NCBI GenBank assembly: GCA_025934775.1
Contig: JAICWO010000008.1
Span: 62,001 to 126,000 of the forward strand
DNA length: 64,000 nucleotides
DNA from: Gemmatimonadaceae bacterium
GTDB lineage: Bacteria > Gemmatimonadota > Gemmatimonadetes > Gemmatimonadales > Gemmatimonadaceae
Reading direction: 5' to 3'
The notes beneath the pieces are model-generated. The model saw only the letters and a program-made list of their open reading frames with translations, had not been told where the DNA came from and ran no database searches. Below are positions 32,168-39,602 of this stretch, piece after piece. The position numbers and the translations under genes were made by a program. Position 1 is the first letter of the stretch. The number at the start of each line of letters is the position of its first letter.

Positions 32168-32506
32168 CTAGGCAGCCGTCTGCGTTCCGTACCAGGACTG
32201 TCGTAATGATGTAATCATGTCGCGAAGATGTGCCAATTGAGCACGATCTCCTGTCCTTCCAACCTGGAGAAGCTCGTTCGCGATATACCCGTACAACGCA
32301 GCGAGCCGGGGCACCAACTCGCCGCCGCTCTTGAAGTCCAGGCTGTACAGCAGATCGAACACGATCCCGGACGCTTCCTCGAGATGCCCGCTACGGCCAC
32401 CCTGCCCCTCATCGAGCTCGCGGTCGGCGTGGGTCAGCTTGGCCAGCAACAGCTCGTACTGATCCGGGATGGTCGGCTCGGCGACCGCGTTTGAGGTGTC
32501 GCCCAT
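32168..32506 (-). CDS. FliS-like flagellar chaperone paralogue
   Basis: 112 residues. LEEASGIVFDLLYSLDFKSGGELVPRLAALYGYIANELLQV corresponds to helices 2-3 of FliS, but the typical N-terminal Y-binding segment (SPGRLVVLVYD) is changed to IPDQYELLLAKLTHADR. It is thus a diverged second FliS. It could serve a different export substrate or flagellin region. It ends the fliD-fliS-flgN operon, 6 bp after flgN. Confidence 0.75.
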   Translation of the reverse strand: MGDTSNAVAEPTIPDQYELLLAKLTHADRELDEGQGGRSGHLEEASGIVFDLLYSLDFKSGGELVPRLAALYGYIANELLQVGRTGDRAQLAHLRDMITSLRQSWYGTQTAA

Positions 32507-32949: not shown

Positions 32950-33339
32950 TCAGGCCGCCGTGACGTGACGGTGCTCGGAGATCGCGGCAAACGCGCCGCG
33001 CAGATCGGCCAGCATGCGCGTGACGCGCTCGAGCCGGTCCGGCTGCGGACGGCGTCCGAATTCCTGCAGCTCGCTGAGGAAGTATCCATACAGATTCTTC
33101 AGGCTCTTGCCGACGTCGCCTCCGCGCTCCGCATCCACGGTCGCGAGGAGCTCGAACAAGCCGGCGCGCGCCTTGGCTACGGCGTGCACCCGCTCTTCGA
33201 TCTTGCCAGTCTTGTGGGCGAGCACCGCGCGCGTGAGCTGCGCGATGACGTGATCGTAGACCAGAACGACGAGGCGTCCCGGACTTGCGGTCTGAACCTC
33301 GCGCGTGCGGTACGCGCTGGCGGCATGTTGGTAGCTCAT
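32950..33339 (-). CDS. fliS: FliS flagellin export chaperone
   Basis: 129 residues, usual for FliS. SYQHAASAYRTREVQTASPG begins the protein, then RLVVLVYDHVIAQLTRA, and NLYGYFLSELQEFGRR, all conserved FliS segments. It would cap the C-terminus of flagellin before export and, in many bacteria, contact FliW. ATG 33339 has AGGA close upstream. It starts 17 bp after the fliD stop. Confidence 0.93.
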   Translation of the reverse strand: MSYQHAASAYRTREVQTASPGRLVVLVYDHVIAQLTRAVLAHKTGKIEERVHAVAKARAGLFELLATVDAERGGDVGKSLKNLYGYFLSELQEFGRRPQPDRLERVTRMLADLRGAFAAISEHRHVTAA

Positions 33340-33356
33340 GTTCCTAACTATCGGCA

Positions 33357-36125
33357 CTAGTTGCTGGAACCTGAGATCTGGGCCGTCGTCAGTAACGAAT
33401 TGATCTGGTTGGTGAGGGCGGCGCTCTGCGATTGGAGTTTGCTCAACGCCGTCTCCATCGCCGTGAACTGCTGCGTGAGCGCCGTCCGCTTGGCGTCGAG
33501 CCGCGCCTGGACGGCCTGCGCCTGCGTATCGAGATCGCTGATCTGCTGCTGCAGCGTCGAGGTCTGTTGCACGACCACTCCGTCTCCGGGGCGGCTGAGC
33601 TCATCGCTGAGCGCGCCGAGCGCGCCGCCGAGTCCTTCCGTGAACGACAGCGTGCTCGATGCGGAGGCCGCCGCGCCGGTGTACGTCACGGCGAGTCCGT
33701 TCGTATTTCCCGCCGTGCCGGTCAGCACCTGCCCAACGCCCGTCGCGGCGAGGTGCGTGGCCCCGTCCTGATCGAGGAAGGATCCGGCGACGTCGAGGCC
33801 GTTCTGGACCGTGCCGGCCGCGATGCCGAGCATGCCGGCGACGTCGTTCGCGGCCGATGACGCGTACGTGATGCTGAACGTGGGCGCATGTCCGTAGCTC
33901 GCCGCGCCGATCGCGAGCGTGCCGTTCGCGCTCGTGGCGCTCAGGCGCATGCTCTGCGCGGCAAAGAGCGCGTTGAGCTTCTGCGCGACCGAATCGGGCG
34001 TGTCGCCGGTCACGAGGTTGATCGAGCCTGACGCTCCGGACGCCGAGTCGCTGATCGTGAGCGAGTCCGTCGAGCTTCCCGCGGCATACGTGAAGTTCGC
34101 GGCGGTGCTCGAGATGGACGCCTTCGTTGCGGCTTGCGTGATCTGCGCCGTGTAGTTGCCGCTGGCCGTGGACGGCGTGGAGCCGATGTACGCGAAATCG
34201 CTGCTCGAGGTGGTCGCCATGGTCGCGAACAGCGACTTCACGGCCTGCGCGTTCGTGGACAATGCCGTGTTGAGCGCGGCGGTGTCGAGCGAGAGCGTGC
34301 CGGTCGAATCGAACGTGAGGCCCACGAGCGCGGCATTGTTGTACGGCGTGCCGCTCGGTAAACCGGCGACGTCGGAGAGCAGCGAGTCCTTGATGCTCTG
34401 CATCGACTGTCGCATCGAGCTGTTGAACTGCAGCGCGCCGCCGCTCGCCGTCGACGACTTCGCGAACGAGTTCATGCTGTTGTACGCCGACACGAACTGC
34501 TGCAACGCGCTCGCGGTCTGACTCGTGTCCTGCGCGATGCTGACGTTGACCGTGGTGCCGGCTTCCGCCTGATTGAGCGTCAGCGTGACGCCGGTGATCG
34601 CGTCGGAGATCGTGTTCGACGGGCGCGTGAACTGCACGCCATTGACGACGAGGCGCGCGTCGCTGCCGGCCGCGAGCTGCCGCTGGCGTCCGACGACGTT
34701 CACCGAGGCGGCGCCAAAGCTCAGGCTCGCGCCGTTGGTGGGATCGGAGACGCCGCTCTCATTGTTCGCGGCGATCGAGAAGGAGAGCGCCGAGTCGCCG
34801 CCGGCGTCGTCGGTGAGCTGAATCTGCCCGTTGACGATCGACGCGCTCACATGGCGATTGGTCGCGCTGAACGCGTTGCTCAAATCACCGAGCAGATCGC
34901 CGACCGTATTCGAGGCGCCGACCGTCTCGGTGAACGAAGCCGTGGTTCCGTCGGGTTTGGTGCCGTTGATGGTGAAGGTGTCGCCCGACTGCGCGCCGTT
35001 GCCGCCGGCAATCTTCAATCCGGCGAGCGCCGTGCTCGACGTCGCGGTCGTGCCGTCGCTCGCGAGCAGCGCGTTCGCCGTCGTCACCTGCTGCGCGACG
35101 ATGCCGGTGGTGCCGCGCGTCAGGCCGAGCAGGTCGAGCGTCGGCGCCGACGCGCTGTCGGCGCTCGCCGCCACGCTGCCTGAGATCTTCAGCCGATAGC
35201 TGGTCGTCGTTCCGCTCGCGACGCTCTCCACGGACGCGCTGTTCGGCGACTGCGCGTTGATCGCGGCGGCAATGTCCGTGAGGCTCTCTGTCTGGACGTT
35301 CACGGCGACCGAGCGGCCGTTGACGAGAACGGTCGTCGCGGCCGGCGGAGTGGTGATGCCGGCCAGCTGCCCGGCGACCGCGCTGGTGCTGCTGCCGAAC
35401 GTGGCGCTGCGCACCGCGCCGTCGCTCGCCACGTTCGGCGTCGAGCCGTCGGCGAAGCCGAGCTGCGCGAGCAGGCTCGCATCGCTCGTGCTCGAGCGCA
35501 CGTCGCGGAGATCGATTCCCGCCGCGCCGCCGACGTCGCTGGTGAGGATGAGCCGCGCCGACGAGCTGCCGCTCATCAGGACCGACGCCGAGACCCGCGA
35601 CGGACTGTCGCCCGCATCGAGCGCGTTGATCTTGTCGCGGATGCCATTCAGAGAATCAGTATTAGCGATCGTGACGAGCTTGCCGCCGACCACGACCTGG
35701 CCGCTCAGACTCATCGCCGCGGCGGGGTCGCTCACGATGTTGCCGCTCAATTGCTGCGCCTGGGCGAGCGAGAGCACCTGCACGCCGTAGCTCCCCGGCG
35801 CCGCCGATGCCGTCGCGCTGGCCGAGACGATCGACGCGCCGCTCACCGGGCTGGTGCCGCCGCTCACCGAGAACGCGTTGAACGCCGCGCCGTTCGAGAG
35901 ATTGAGCACCGCGCTGTTCAGGCTCGACGCGAGCTGGCCGTACGTCGTCCACGCGCCGGACGCCGCGGTATCGGACTTCTCCGTGTCCTGCAGAGGCGTG
36001 AGCTGATTCGCGGTATCCGCCGCGATCAACTGATCGATCAAATCCTGCCATTGAATGTTGCTGGCAAGACCCTGGATGCTGGTCACCGGCGTGCTGCTGC
36101 TGCCGCTGCTGCTGATGCTGGCCAT
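33357..36125 (-). CDS. fliD: FliD flagellar filament cap / hook-associated protein 2
   Basis: 922 residues, far longer than the typical 450-700. The N-terminus (ISSSGSSSTPVTSIQGLASNIQ, IQWQDLIDQLIAADTA) and C-terminal coiled coil (LQQQISDLDTQAQAVQARLDAKRTALTQQFTAMETALSKLQSQ) are typical. Several flagellin-IN motifs occur in the middle (VLVNGRSVAVNVQTESLTDIAAAIN; GDTFTINGTKPDGT). Extra length is in the middle, the exposed cap domains. It would form the cap under which flagellin folds. Followed by fliS, flgN and a second fliS. Confidence 0.93.
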   Translation of the reverse strand: MASISSSGSSSTPVTSIQGLASNIQWQDLIDQLIAADTANQLTPLQDTEKSDTAASGAWTTYGQLASSLNSAVLNLSNGAAFNAFSVSGGTSPVSGASIVSASATASAAPGSYGVQVLSLAQAQQLSGNIVSDPAAAMSLSGQVVVGGKLVTIANTDSLNGIRDKINALDAGDSPSRVSASVLMSGSSSARLILTSDVGGAAGIDLRDVRSSTSDASLLAQLGFADGSTPNVASDGAVRSATFGSSTSAVAGQLAGITTPPAATTVLVNGRSVAVNVQTESLTDIAAAINAQSPNSASVESVASGTTTSYRLKISGSVAASADSASAPTLDLLGLTRGTTGIVAQQVTTANALLASDGTTATSSTALAGLKIAGGNGAQSGDTFTINGTKPDGTTASFTETVGASNTVGDLLGDLSNAFSATNRHVSASIVNGQIQLTDDAGGDSALSFSIAANNESGVSDPTNGASLSFGAASVNVVGRQRQLAAGSDARLVVNGVQFTRPSNTISDAITGVTLTLNQAEAGTTVNVSIAQDTSQTASALQQFVSAYNSMNSFAKSSTASGGALQFNSSMRQSMQSIKDSLLSDVAGLPSGTPYNNAALVGLTFDSTGTLSLDTAALNTALSTNAQAVKSLFATMATTSSSDFAYIGSTPSTASGNYTAQITQAATKASISSTAANFTYAAGSSTDSLTISDSASGASGSINLVTGDTPDSVAQKLNALFAAQSMRLSATSANGTLAIGAASYGHAPTFSITYASSAANDVAGMLGIAAGTVQNGLDVAGSFLDQDGATHLAATGVGQVLTGTAGNTNGLAVTYTGAAASASSTLSFTEGLGGALGALSDELSRPGDGVVVQQTSTLQQQISDLDTQAQAVQARLDAKRTALTQQFTAMETALSKLQSQSAALTNQINSLLTTAQISGSSN

Positions 36126-36257: not shown

Positions 36258-37976
36258 TTACTGGAGCAGCTTGAGGACACTGGATCCGAGCTGGTTGGCC
36301 TGCGCCAACATCGCCGTGCCGGCCTGCGAGAGAATCTGTTCCTTCGAGAAGTTCGTCATCTCCGACGCCATGTCGACGTCGCGGATGGTGGACTCGGCGG
36401 CCGTGAAGTTCTCGATCGCCGTCTTGACGTTGCTCGAGGCGTACCCGATCCGGTTTTCGGCCGCGCCGATCGAGCCGAGCGCCGTGCCGACCGAGGTGAT
36501 CGCGCTGTCGATCGAGGTCAGCGCCGACTGCGCGCTGCTCGCGGACGTGAGGCTGATCGACGTCGTGTCCACGCCGAGCTGCGACGCGGAGAGGTTGATC
36601 GCATCCAGGTTGATCAGGTCGTTGCCCGAGTAGTTCTGCGACGCGCTGACCAGGAACTCCGCCTGATGGTCCGTGGTGCGCTGGATCGTGTTGTGGCTCG
36701 CCGCGAAGTCCGTCTTCAGATTGTCGGCCGTGGCGCTGCCCGAGAGGGTGACCGTGAGGCCGAGCTGGCTGAAGCCGAGGTTCTGGCTCGCCGGGTTGGC
36801 GTCGAGGTTGATCGCCTGCGACGTGGCGCCAGAGGTGAGCTTGAGCTGATCGTTCTCCGTCACGCCGATCGCCTTGCCGCTGAATCCCGACGCGGCGCCC
36901 GTGTTGACCTGGAAGCTCAGGCCGTAGCTGCCGAACGACGCCGTCTGGGCCGAGCCATCATCCGCGATCGACGCATCCTGGCCGGCGCTCACGCCGCCGC
37001 CGGCAGCGTGCAGGGTGTAGTTCTGCACGAGCTTGACGCTCTTGGTATTGAGCGCGAGGACCGAGCCGCCGCCAACCGTCAGCGTGATGCCGCCGGCCGA
37101 CACGGAGGTCGCGTTGTCGGCAACCGTCGCCGAGAAGGTCGTGCCGCCATTCGTGAAGGTGACGTCGGTCTTGGTGTTGTCGACCCCGTTCACCGCCGTC
37201 GTGATCGCGTACGTACCGGCCGTTTCGGCCTTGGCGGTCGCCTGCGTCGAGACCGACGCGGCCGTGAGGACCGAGTCCGTCGTCGCGCTCAGGCTGGCGT
37301 TGTTTTGCGTCACGCTGCTGATCGAGACGGCGCTCGACGCGTCGAGCGAGTCGACGGTCGACTGGCTGGTGACCGTCAGCGCCACGCCGCTGTTGAAGTT
37401 CGCGCCGAGGGTGTTGCCGGTCTTCTGCACGCTGGCGGTGATGTCGGCGCTCAAGCCCGCGAGCTTGGACGCATCGGAGACGGCCACGTTGCCGACGTGC
37501 GCCTGGTAGATCGAGGAGCCGGCATCGACCGCGCCATTCGAGACCGACTTGCTGCCGAACGTGCCGTCGAGGAGGTTCGCGCCTTCGAACTTCGTGGTGT
37601 CGACAATGCGATCGAGCTCGCCGCTCAGCGACCCGAACTCGTTGTTGATCTTCGTGCGCGCGGAATCGTCGACCGTGTCCGATGCGGACTGGGCGGCGAG
37701 CTCCTTCATGCGCTCGAGGATCGACTGAATGTTCTGGGTGGCGCCGTCCATGATCTGCAGGACCGAGCTCGCCTGGTCGGCGTTGTTCGCCGCCTGCTGC
37801 ATCGCGCCGATGTCGCCGCGAAGCTGGTTCGCGATGCCGAGACCGGCCGCGTCATCGCCCGCCTTGTTGATGCGGAAGCCCGATGAGAGTTTCTCCATCG
37901 AGCTGCTCAGTTGATCCTGCACCTTCGACAAGTTGCCGTAGGCGTTGATCGCACTGATGTTGGTGTTGATACGCAT
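36258..37976 (-). CDS. fliC: Flagellin
   Basis: 572-residue filament subunit. D0/D1 N-terminus MRINTNISAINAYGNLSKVQ, then SSGFRINKAGDDAAGLGIANQL; C-terminal helix RDVDMASEMTNFSKEQILSQAGTAMLAQANQLGSSVLKLLQ. The centre (about 170-430) is Thr/Ser/Val-rich beta-structure and would face outward. Single flagellin gene here. ATG 37976 with GGAGGAA 8 nt upstream inside an RNA hairpin. Transcribed from a clear sigma-28 promoter and probably repressed by CsrA (see below). Confidence 0.97.
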   Translation of the reverse strand: MRINTNISAINAYGNLSKVQDQLSSSMEKLSSGFRINKAGDDAAGLGIANQLRGDIGAMQQAANNADQASSVLQIMDGATQNIQSILERMKELAAQSASDTVDDSARTKINNEFGSLSGELDRIVDTTKFEGANLLDGTFGSKSVSNGAVDAGSSIYQAHVGNVAVSDASKLAGLSADITASVQKTGNTLGANFNSGVALTVTSQSTVDSLDASSAVSISSVTQNNASLSATTDSVLTAASVSTQATAKAETAGTYAITTAVNGVDNTKTDVTFTNGGTTFSATVADNATSVSAGGITLTVGGGSVLALNTKSVKLVQNYTLHAAGGGVSAGQDASIADDGSAQTASFGSYGLSFQVNTGAASGFSGKAIGVTENDQLKLTSGATSQAINLDANPASQNLGFSQLGLTVTLSGSATADNLKTDFAASHNTIQRTTDHQAEFLVSASQNYSGNDLINLDAINLSASQLGVDTTSISLTSASSAQSALTSIDSAITSVGTALGSIGAAENRIGYASSNVKTAIENFTAAESTIRDVDMASEMTNFSKEQILSQAGTAMLAQANQLGSSVLKLLQ

Positions 37977-37982
37977 TGCGGT

Positions 37983-37996
37983 GTTCCTCCGTGAAC
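37983..37996 (-). promoter_or_regulatory. CsrA-type hairpin overlapping the flagellin ribosome binding site
   Basis: On the mRNA: GTTC-ACGGAG-GAAC. The loop holds ACGGA, which contains the GGA core of CsrA sites, and the hairpin includes the Shine-Dalgarno. Binding would block ribosome entry. Confidence 0.6.
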
Positions 37997-38003
37997 GGTG
38001 ATC

Positions 38004-38019
38004 GGAGCGTCCGTGCTCC
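38004..38019 (-). promoter_or_regulatory. Second CsrA-type hairpin in the flagellin leader
   Basis: On the mRNA: GGAGC-ACGGAC-GCTCC, again presenting ACGGA in a 6-base loop. It lies 18 bases upstream of the first site in the leader; two sites suit one CsrA dimer, as in Bacillus hag. Confidence 0.6.
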
Positions 38020-38057
38020 AGAGCGATGGCTTGCTAGGTAGTCGTCGCTGGAGTTCA

Positions 38058-38084
38058 GTATCGGCGATCACACGTCCGACTTTA
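38058..38084 (-). promoter_or_regulatory. Sigma-28 promoter of flagellin
   Basis: TAAAGTCG (38084-38077), 11 bases, GCCGATAC (38065-38058) on the minus strand. Nearly the full FliA consensus. The transcript would start near 38050, giving a leader of about 75 nt. Confidence 0.88.
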
Positions 38085-38100
38085 ACGGAGGCTCGCGCGC

Positions 38101-38580
38101 TCAGGTCTTGAGGCGCGCGAGATCGATCGGGCAGCGCACGCCGTAGTCCGTCTCGCTGACCACGATCTGCTTGCCGCAGCGCGTCGCGAAGTTGATCGCG
38201 ACGGGCCCCTGGAGGTTCGCCGTCGGATGCTGGCCAGCCGTCGCCGGGAGCGTGACGATCGCGAGCAGCGCCACGTCCGAGGGGCGGTGCGGCCCGAGCT
38301 CCATGAGCTGCGACGGCCCAATCTCTATAGAATAGTCATTCGCAACTTCGAATGGATCCACGAGCAGGAACACGAGCGTCGAGTAGTCGTGCGACTGGAG
38401 CCAGAACAGCCCCTCGTGCGCGGCGCGCACGAGCGCGAACCGCCGGCATTCGGGAAAGCCGAGGAGCCCGGAGGGAAACGTGAGCAGCTCGTCGCTCCGC
38501 ACGCGCAGCGCGCCGAGCAGGTCCGACTTGACGTCCACGAACTCCGGCTCGGCGGCGTTCACCAGCGTCAATCCACTCAT
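38101..38580 (-). CDS. fliW: FliW flagellar assembly factor
   Basis: 159-residue protein that binds either flagellin or CsrA and so couples flagellin synthesis to its use. LTFPSGLLGFPECRRFALV and FWLQSHDYSTLVFLLVDPF are characteristic, as is FATRCGKQIVVSETDYGVRCPI at the end. Its ATG overlaps the flgL stop as ATGA. csrA, which usually follows fliW, is not here. An AT-rich patch lies at 38325-38345. Confidence 0.94.
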   Translation of the reverse strand: MSGLTLVNAAEPEFVDVKSDLLGALRVRSDELLTFPSGLLGFPECRRFALVRAAHEGLFWLQSHDYSTLVFLLVDPFEVANDYSIEIGPSQLMELGPHRPSDVALLAIVTLPATAGQHPTANLQGPVAINFATRCGKQIVVSETDYGVRCPIDLARLKT

Positions 38581-39482
38581 TTCAGATAATCTGTGAGGGT
38601 GAGACCCATGACTTTCGAGGTCGCGAGCATCGCGGCCTGATATGCCATCTGCCGATTGGTCAGCTCGGTGACCGCTTGCTCGACGTCCGCGTCGGAGAGG
38701 TTCGACTTGAACGTCGTGAGATTGGTTTTGTACGCGTCGAGATTCTGCTGCGTGACGTCGAGCTGCTGCGCGGTCGCTCCCACGTCGCCGACGACGCCCT
38801 GGATGGATGTGAGCGCCTGATCCACCGCCGTCATCGCGCTGCCGATGCCGTCCTGCCCGTACGTGCTCGACGCCGGATCGAGCGCGTGCGCGAGCTGCTT
38901 CACGGCGTCGAGGACGCCGGTGTCCTGCAGGAGCTGCTTGCCCGTGTGGGAGATCTGGAGCGTCTGGCCGTCGCCGGTGTCGATCGACCGGGCGCCCTGC
39001 GCGTTCGTCGCCGTGTAGTCGAGTGTGGCGCCTGCGCCGCTGGTGGCGAACGGCTCGGTCTGCGACTGATCGCCGCCGAAGACATACTCGTCGCCGAATT
39101 TCGTATTGCCGATCGAGATGATCTGCTGAAACAGCTGATTGACCTCCGCGGCGGCGCTCGAGCGCGTCTGATCCGTGGCGGTCGCGGTGGCCTGCTGCAC
39201 GCCGATCTGCTTGGCGCGAGAGAGAATGTCGTTGAGCTGCTGAAGCGCGCTGTCCTCGGTCGAGACGCGGCTCGACGCGCGCTGCACGTTCGTGAGATAC
39301 TGATCGAGTGCGGCGAGCGACGAATTCGTGGCGACGATCTGCGTCGCCGCGGCGGGATCGTCGGACGCGGCTTGCAGCCGATTCCCGGAACTGACCTGCG
39401 CCTGCGACTTCATGAGCGCCGTCATGTTCAGCGACAGGCCCGTGAGTTGAGCCTGGGCCATCATGTTATTCGTAATTCGCAT
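38577..39482 (-). CDS. flgL: FlgL hook-filament junction protein 3
   Basis: 301 residues. MRITNNMMAQAQLTGLSLN is the flagellin-like D0 N-terminus; TKFGDEYVFGGDQSQTEPF is an FlgL hallmark and TNRQMAYQAAMLATSKVMGLTLTDYLK the C-terminal helix. Start ATG 39482 with GGAGC upstream. flgK is not adjacent; it is probably beyond the right edge. First gene of flgL-fliW. Confidence 0.94.
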   Translation of the reverse strand: MRITNNMMAQAQLTGLSLNMTALMKSQAQVSSGNRLQAASDDPAAATQIVATNSSLAALDQYLTNVQRASSRVSTEDSALQQLNDILSRAKQIGVQQATATATDQTRSSAAAEVNQLFQQIISIGNTKFGDEYVFGGDQSQTEPFATSGAGATLDYTATNAQGARSIDTGDGQTLQISHTGKQLLQDTGVLDAVKQLAHALDPASSTYGQDGIGSAMTAVDQALTSIQGVVGDVGATAQQLDVTQQNLDAYKTNLTTFKSNLSDADVEQAVTELTNRQMAYQAAMLATSKVMGLTLTDYLK

Positions 39483-39553
39483 AGCCGCTCCGTTGCGGAT
39501 GGCGCGGGACCCGGCAATTGTTGCCGCCGAATACACCCACGCGTCATTCCGCA

Positions 39554-39581
39554 GTATCGACCCCACCCCGCCGCGACTTGA
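39554..39581 (-). promoter_or_regulatory. Sigma-28 promoter candidate of flgL-fliW
   Basis: TCAAGTCG (39581-39574), 12 bases, GTCGATAC (39561-39554). One mismatch per half to the flagellin promoter and one extra spacer base. Confidence 0.55.
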
Positions 39582-39602
39582 GCGGTCGGCCGAAATCATT
39601 CA

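Follow-up and report, generated by a model that had tools for sequence, protein, structure and literature searches.

The flagellin locus

The 64-kb stretch of DNA analysed here (the window) comes from a Gemmatimonadaceae genome of 4.88 Mb that is 99% complete. It carries a flagellin gene, the predicted target of the regulation discussed below, preceded by fliW and by a flgL-like gene (Table 1). A preliminary description of this DNA placed fliW two genes upstream of flagellin; it is instead the next gene, directly upstream across a gap of 124 nt. The fliW product matches FliW as solved in complex with CsrA (PDB 5dmb, E 5.5e-16), as well as PDB 2aj7. The flgL-like gene overlaps the start of fliW by 4 nt; its own start is uncertain, an ATG near 39482 being likelier than the listed 39599. 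The window also encodes FliS, which in known systems partners with both flagellin and FliW, and a second FliS-domain protein near it.

The preliminary description noted that csrA is missing from the window and staked its reading on the gene being found elsewhere in the genome. We identified a single genomic copy (E 2e-19), located 5.3 kb beyond the window end. It belongs to a flagellar cluster, behind genes that read as flgI, flgJ, FlgN-like and flgK; these four were named by reading their sequences, whereas csrA was named by Pfam.

A sigma-28-type promoter lies between fliW and flagellin. Given its position, transcription of flagellin probably starts near 38051, yielding a leader of about 75 nt, the length that had been predicted earlier. 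Matches to a T(A/C)AAGT...CCGATA-like promoter occur at an equal distance before the flagellin genes of most relatives (a simple pattern finds them in 70 of 105 leaders). Three hairpins are predicted in the leader, namely a 5' stem-loop (SL1) and two candidate CsrA sites (BS1 and BS2).

Table 1. Features of the flagellin locus. Positions are those of the window; csrA, beyond the window end, is given with its genome and contig handles.
Feature	Position	Strand	Details
Second FliS-domain protein	32168-32506		E 8e-13
fliS, flagellin export chaperone	32950-33357	minus	Pfam FliS, E 1.5e-24
Flagellin gene, predicted target	36258-37976	minus	572 aa; Flagellin_N and Flagellin_C domains; ATG at 37976
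BS2, predicted CsrA site	37983-37996	minus	hairpin GTTC[ACGGAG]GAAC: GTTC 37996-37993, loop ACGGAG 37992-37987, GAAC 37986-37983
Shine-Dalgarno sequence	37986-37990	minus	GGAGG; in BS2 loop and 3' arm, 9 nt before the ATG
BS1, predicted CsrA site	38003-38020	minus	hairpin GGAGC[ACGGAC]GCTCC: GGAGC 38019-38015, loop ACGGAC 38014-38009, GCTCC 38008-38004; additional closing U-G pair 38020/38003
SL1, 5' stem-loop	38022-38049	minus	between promoter and BS1; loop without ANGGA; in the minimum free energy fold
Sigma-28-type promoter	38058-38084	minus	TAAA 38084-38081, 15-nt spacer, GCCGATAC 38065-38058
fliW	38101-38580	minus	159 aa; predicted CsrA antagonist and flagellin-binding protein; Pfam FliW, E 2.2e-33
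flgL-like hook-filament junction gene	38577-39599	minus	flagellin-family domains
csrA	G000:C35:131267-131422		Pfam match, 72 bits; one copy in genome

Rarity of the hairpin pair

The two hairpins with ACGGA loops, one of them over the ribosome binding site, had been described with exact sequences and coordinates, and both are present in the minimum free energy fold of the 77-nt leader, folding being a check proposed at that time. BS1 alone is strong (-7.3 kcal/mol, z -3.5). The leader overall is as stable as its shuffles (z -0.33) and BS2 in isolation is weak (-3.0 kcal/mol, z -0.18); thus, folding energy by itself provides no evidence.

The arrangement is nevertheless rare. The window contains 326 ANGGA motifs on both strands, of which 15 sit in hexaloops on a stem of 4 bp or more, so single hairpins of this kind could be expected to arise by chance in a GC-rich leader. 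Pairs of them are another matter: when each stem must have 4 bp or more and the two hairpins must lie 15-40 nt apart, the pair in the flagellin leader is the only one on either strand of the window, and two such hairpins appeared in none of 20,000 dinucleotide-preserving shuffles of this leader. When the whole genome is scanned with a covariance model of both hairpins, the flagellin leader scores 55.6 bits and the next-best place 24.2 bits. Together with the phylum-wide covariation described below, the unique pair and the shuffles leave a chance arrangement with virtually no probability, and we regard it as already refuted.

Several other candidates were considered and rejected. The second match of the model precedes a small glyoxalase-like gene (named by reading its sequence) and has a Shine-Dalgarno hairpin, TTC[ACGGAG]GAA, but its upstream hairpin has no GGA. 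The third was also rejected as a CsrA site; it falls within a coding frame that is xylanase-like. The strongest single plus-strand hairpin (19684) is within a gene, on the opposite strand. In a read-through transcript, CCUCCGU after the fliW stop codon pairs with ACGGAGG of BS2, which includes the Shine-Dalgarno sequence (37974-38100, z -2.5). We rejected this pairing as a conserved feature because two leaders of the same genus (L004 and L007) have no such complement and because it involves sequence upstream of the inferred transcription start.

Conservation and covariation across the Gemmatimonadota

Of 112 leaders of flagellin-family genes gathered across the phylum, 105 have an upstream ANGGA hexaloop whose stem is 4 bp or longer; its distance to the start codon is in nearly all cases 32-47 nt. 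All seven stem pairs of BS1 show double changes (among GC, AU, CG and UA). The covariation score is 0.647, compared with 0.252 for shuffles and at most 0.222 when the pairing partner is slid, and 107 cells are altered on both sides (39 in shuffles). To enter this analysis a row had to show an ANGGA loop on a stem of 4 bp or more, and to enter that of BS2 a stem of 3 bp or more; such selection biases the percentages of paired cells and hardly affects the double changes, since for BS1 it dropped only 7 of the 112 leaders.

For BS2, in leaders with both hairpins, 89.9% of helix cells are paired (a figure subject to the selection bias just mentioned) and double changes occur at all four pairs. Allowing loops of 6-9 nt, the stem reaches at least 3 bp in 80% of leaders and at least 4 bp in 47%, as against 41% and 15% in a shuffled-flank control. 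Counting against control by CsrA, BS2 is weak alone and its stem has at most 2 bp in about one fifth of leaders.

These patterns bear on whether the hairpins might be purely structural, tuning ribosome access or mRNA stability without any protein, with the GGA of BS2 being simply the Shine-Dalgarno sequence and BS1 a chance look-alike. The GGAGG of BS2 would be conserved anyway as a ribosome site, and the lack of unusual stability in the leader as a whole fits such a role. BS1, however, is no ribosome site, yet across 57 distinct sequences the A and GGA of its loop never vary and each pair of its stem does. A hairpin serving only as structure would not fix its loop while freeing its stem, so we consider this explanation highly improbable and favor recognition of the loops by CsrA.

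BS1 is missing from some flagellin copies or paralogues in one distant family, which also counts against control by CsrA. Four genomes (G203, G204, G205 and G207) encode two csrA genes and several flagellin copies each; in this set the copies L139, L140, L142 and L144 have no BS1 and other copies retain it. The flagellin copies may therefore be regulated differently. Two near-identical leaders, L168 and L182, differ in BS1 by a change from GAGGC[ACGGAT]GCCTC to GAGGA[ACGGAC]TCCTC; L182 has neither the Shine-Dalgarno site nor the start codon.

A hairpin at the position of SL1 is also predicted in most leaders of relatives, with a mean z of -2.1 over 67 leaders (57 of them below -1). Its sequence is free, and RNAalifold covariation was obtained for the inner three pairs only, in one group. 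SL1 perhaps protects the 5' end or prevents misfolding of BS1. Five leaders of one family (f5: L119, L120, L123, L124 and L125) have two tandem upstream ANGGA hexaloops, giving a total of three predicted CsrA sites. The first of the two in L119 may correspond to its 5' stem-loop.

Conservation of CsrA

The CsrA encoded in this genome has 80 amino acids and contains R44, N55 and a C-terminal extension. R44 and N55 are needed for RNA or FliW binding in other CsrA proteins (PMC7652899, PMC7829508). FliW binding requires N55 in Geobacter, and both N55 and the C-terminal extension in B. subtilis and C. jejuni (PMC7829508, PMC13407953). In our alignment L4, R6 and R44 are invariant; all 21 genomes encode R44 and 19 of them N55, and the proteins are 75-100 amino acids long. 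The B. subtilis and E. coli rows of this alignment agree with PDB 1t3o and 1y00 over the stretches compared. In two relatives threonine replaces asparagine at position 55 (loci L045, genome G027, and L052, G022), although fliW is present; this counts against the proposed switch.

Co-occurrence and genome-wide specificity

Among 59 relatives, the 21 genomes with csrA are also the ones with fliW and the ones with an orthologous flagellin. All three are absent from three genomes belonging to the genus of the window. Across 298 genomes of the phylum, csrA was detected in 78 and fliW in 74: both genes in 73, fliW only in 1, csrA only in 5 and neither in 219. A flagellin-family protein was found in 77 of the 298.

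This distribution is relevant to an alternative in which CsrA represses the leader and FliW is mainly a flagellin chaperone, so that control by CsrA would lack the FliW feedback arm. The threonine at position 55 in two relatives and the five genomes with csrA and no detected fliW are in keeping with such a view, as is the fact that the FliW-CsrA contact is here a prediction. However, fliW and csrA occur together in 73 of the 79 genomes having either, several of the genomes with csrA only are incomplete, N55 is retained in most CsrA sequences, and most of this organism's FliW can be aligned to the FliW in the solved CsrA complex. We thus judge control without the feedback arm to be very unlikely and prefer the complete CsrA-FliW-flagellin circuit.

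At a threshold of E at most 0.01, the covariance model gave matches in 16 of the 21 csrA-bearing relatives, 15 of these at flagellin genes, and in none of the 38 others. Two csrA-less controls have leaders without the hairpins: the flagellin of G164 is of a different type, looks alphaproteobacterial and is possibly contamination, and the match in G315 looks like FlgL. As neither is an orthologous flagellin, these controls say little.

The model also matched loci of other lineages. At a Candidatus Tectomicrobia locus (L233 3673-3716, JACPUC010000007.1) it matches the leader of an apparent csrA upstream of fliW, which suggests autoregulation by CsrA there. Weak two-hairpin matches were found approximately 0.5-0.7 kb downstream of fliW in L208, L253 and similar Phycisphaerae loci. 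In L208 and L253 they lie directly before flagellin-like genes; the Shine-Dalgarno hairpin is strong, for example ACAATC[AAGGAG]GATTGT, and the upstream hairpin is different.

Comparison with known systems

In the Bacillus and Campylobacter precedents, CsrA blocks the ribosome, FliW removes CsrA, and free flagellin titrates FliW (PMC7652899, PMC6070490, PMC6529632, PMC4894983). Two CsrA sites in the leader, one of them over the Shine-Dalgarno sequence, are also described for B. subtilis hag (Yakhnin 2007, Mukherjee 2011/2016, as recounted in PMC7652899, PMC6070490 and PMC6529632), and the same sources attribute to B. subtilis a CsrA with a C-terminal extension and N55, together with FliW. The Bacillus fliW and csrA genes lie side by side and their translation is coupled, whereas here fliW precedes flagellin and csrA is found behind flgK, at a distance of about 31 kb. 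The leader described here also has a 5' stem-loop ahead of BS1.

The C. jejuni flaA leader is likewise short and has two stem-loops, each with ANGGA in its loop, of which the second covers the ribosome site; further likenesses are the compensatory changes seen between species and the separation of fliW from csrA (PMC4894983). The flaA leader measures 45 nt and has two stem-loops, while the one described here has about 75 nt and an additional 5' stem-loop. C. jejuni CsrA has many targets; in contrast, the genome search with the covariance model places a double site at flagellin only.

The CsrA fold, R44 and an ANGGAN hexaloop target are shared with gammaproteobacterial Csr/Rsm systems, the hexaloop being the RNA ligand of solved CsrA-family structures (PMC7652899). 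E. coli CsrA has lysine at the position of N55 and no extension, and is controlled by CsrB/C RNAs, in contrast to the N55 and extension seen here. An Rfam search of the window returned no family above threshold, hence no CsrB/C or RsmY/Z-type match within it.

Proposed regulation of flagellin

Given the unique hairpin pair, its covariation, the co-occurrence of the genes and the conservation of R44 and N55, we propose a partner-switch feedback of CsrA, FliW and flagellin as the best explanation, and assign a probability of about 0.92 to its controlling this leader. The preliminary description had offered this reading, which is now strengthened by the presence of both csrA and fliW, the covarying hairpins and the shared retention or loss of csrA, fliW and flagellin; the regulation itself we infer from the genome and from the analogy. 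Sigma-28 would direct transcription of a flagellin mRNA with the short leader. A CsrA dimer would then bind the ANGGAN loops of BS1 and BS2, and with one of its two pockets on the Shine-Dalgarno hairpin it would block the ribosome. FliW, encoded directly upstream of flagellin, may bind the N55 and C-terminal region of CsrA, so that CsrA leaves the RNA. An excess of flagellin in the cytoplasm would bind FliW and free CsrA, switching off flagellin translation, and export of flagellin would reverse the shut-off. Binding, repression, antagonism by FliW and the feedback are taken from the Bacillus and Campylobacter systems, and are predicted here by analogy.

We also speculate that CsrA of the Gemmatimonadota could be a regulator of nearly a single target, flagellin, and that the lineage-specific three-hairpin leader (with its 5' stem-loop and the BS1 duplication of one family) could alter dimer bridging or the number of dimers loaded. 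This idea is tentative and we consider it rather doubtful. A CsrA with nearly one target would be predicted by the proposed ancestral role of this protein.

Significance

Our search of the open-access literature returned no paper linking FliW, CsrA and flagellin in the Gemmatimonadota. The analysis extends the known CsrA-FliW-flagellin switch to this phylum, with RNA covariation across it, and judging from its genome, the switch against flagellin over-production known from Bacillus and Campylobacter very probably operates in this bacterium too. The almost strict joint presence or loss of csrA, fliW and flagellin, even within a genus, and the one strong target support the idea that CsrA originally served to control flagellin. 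The Gemmatimonadota may offer a clean system for testing that idea.
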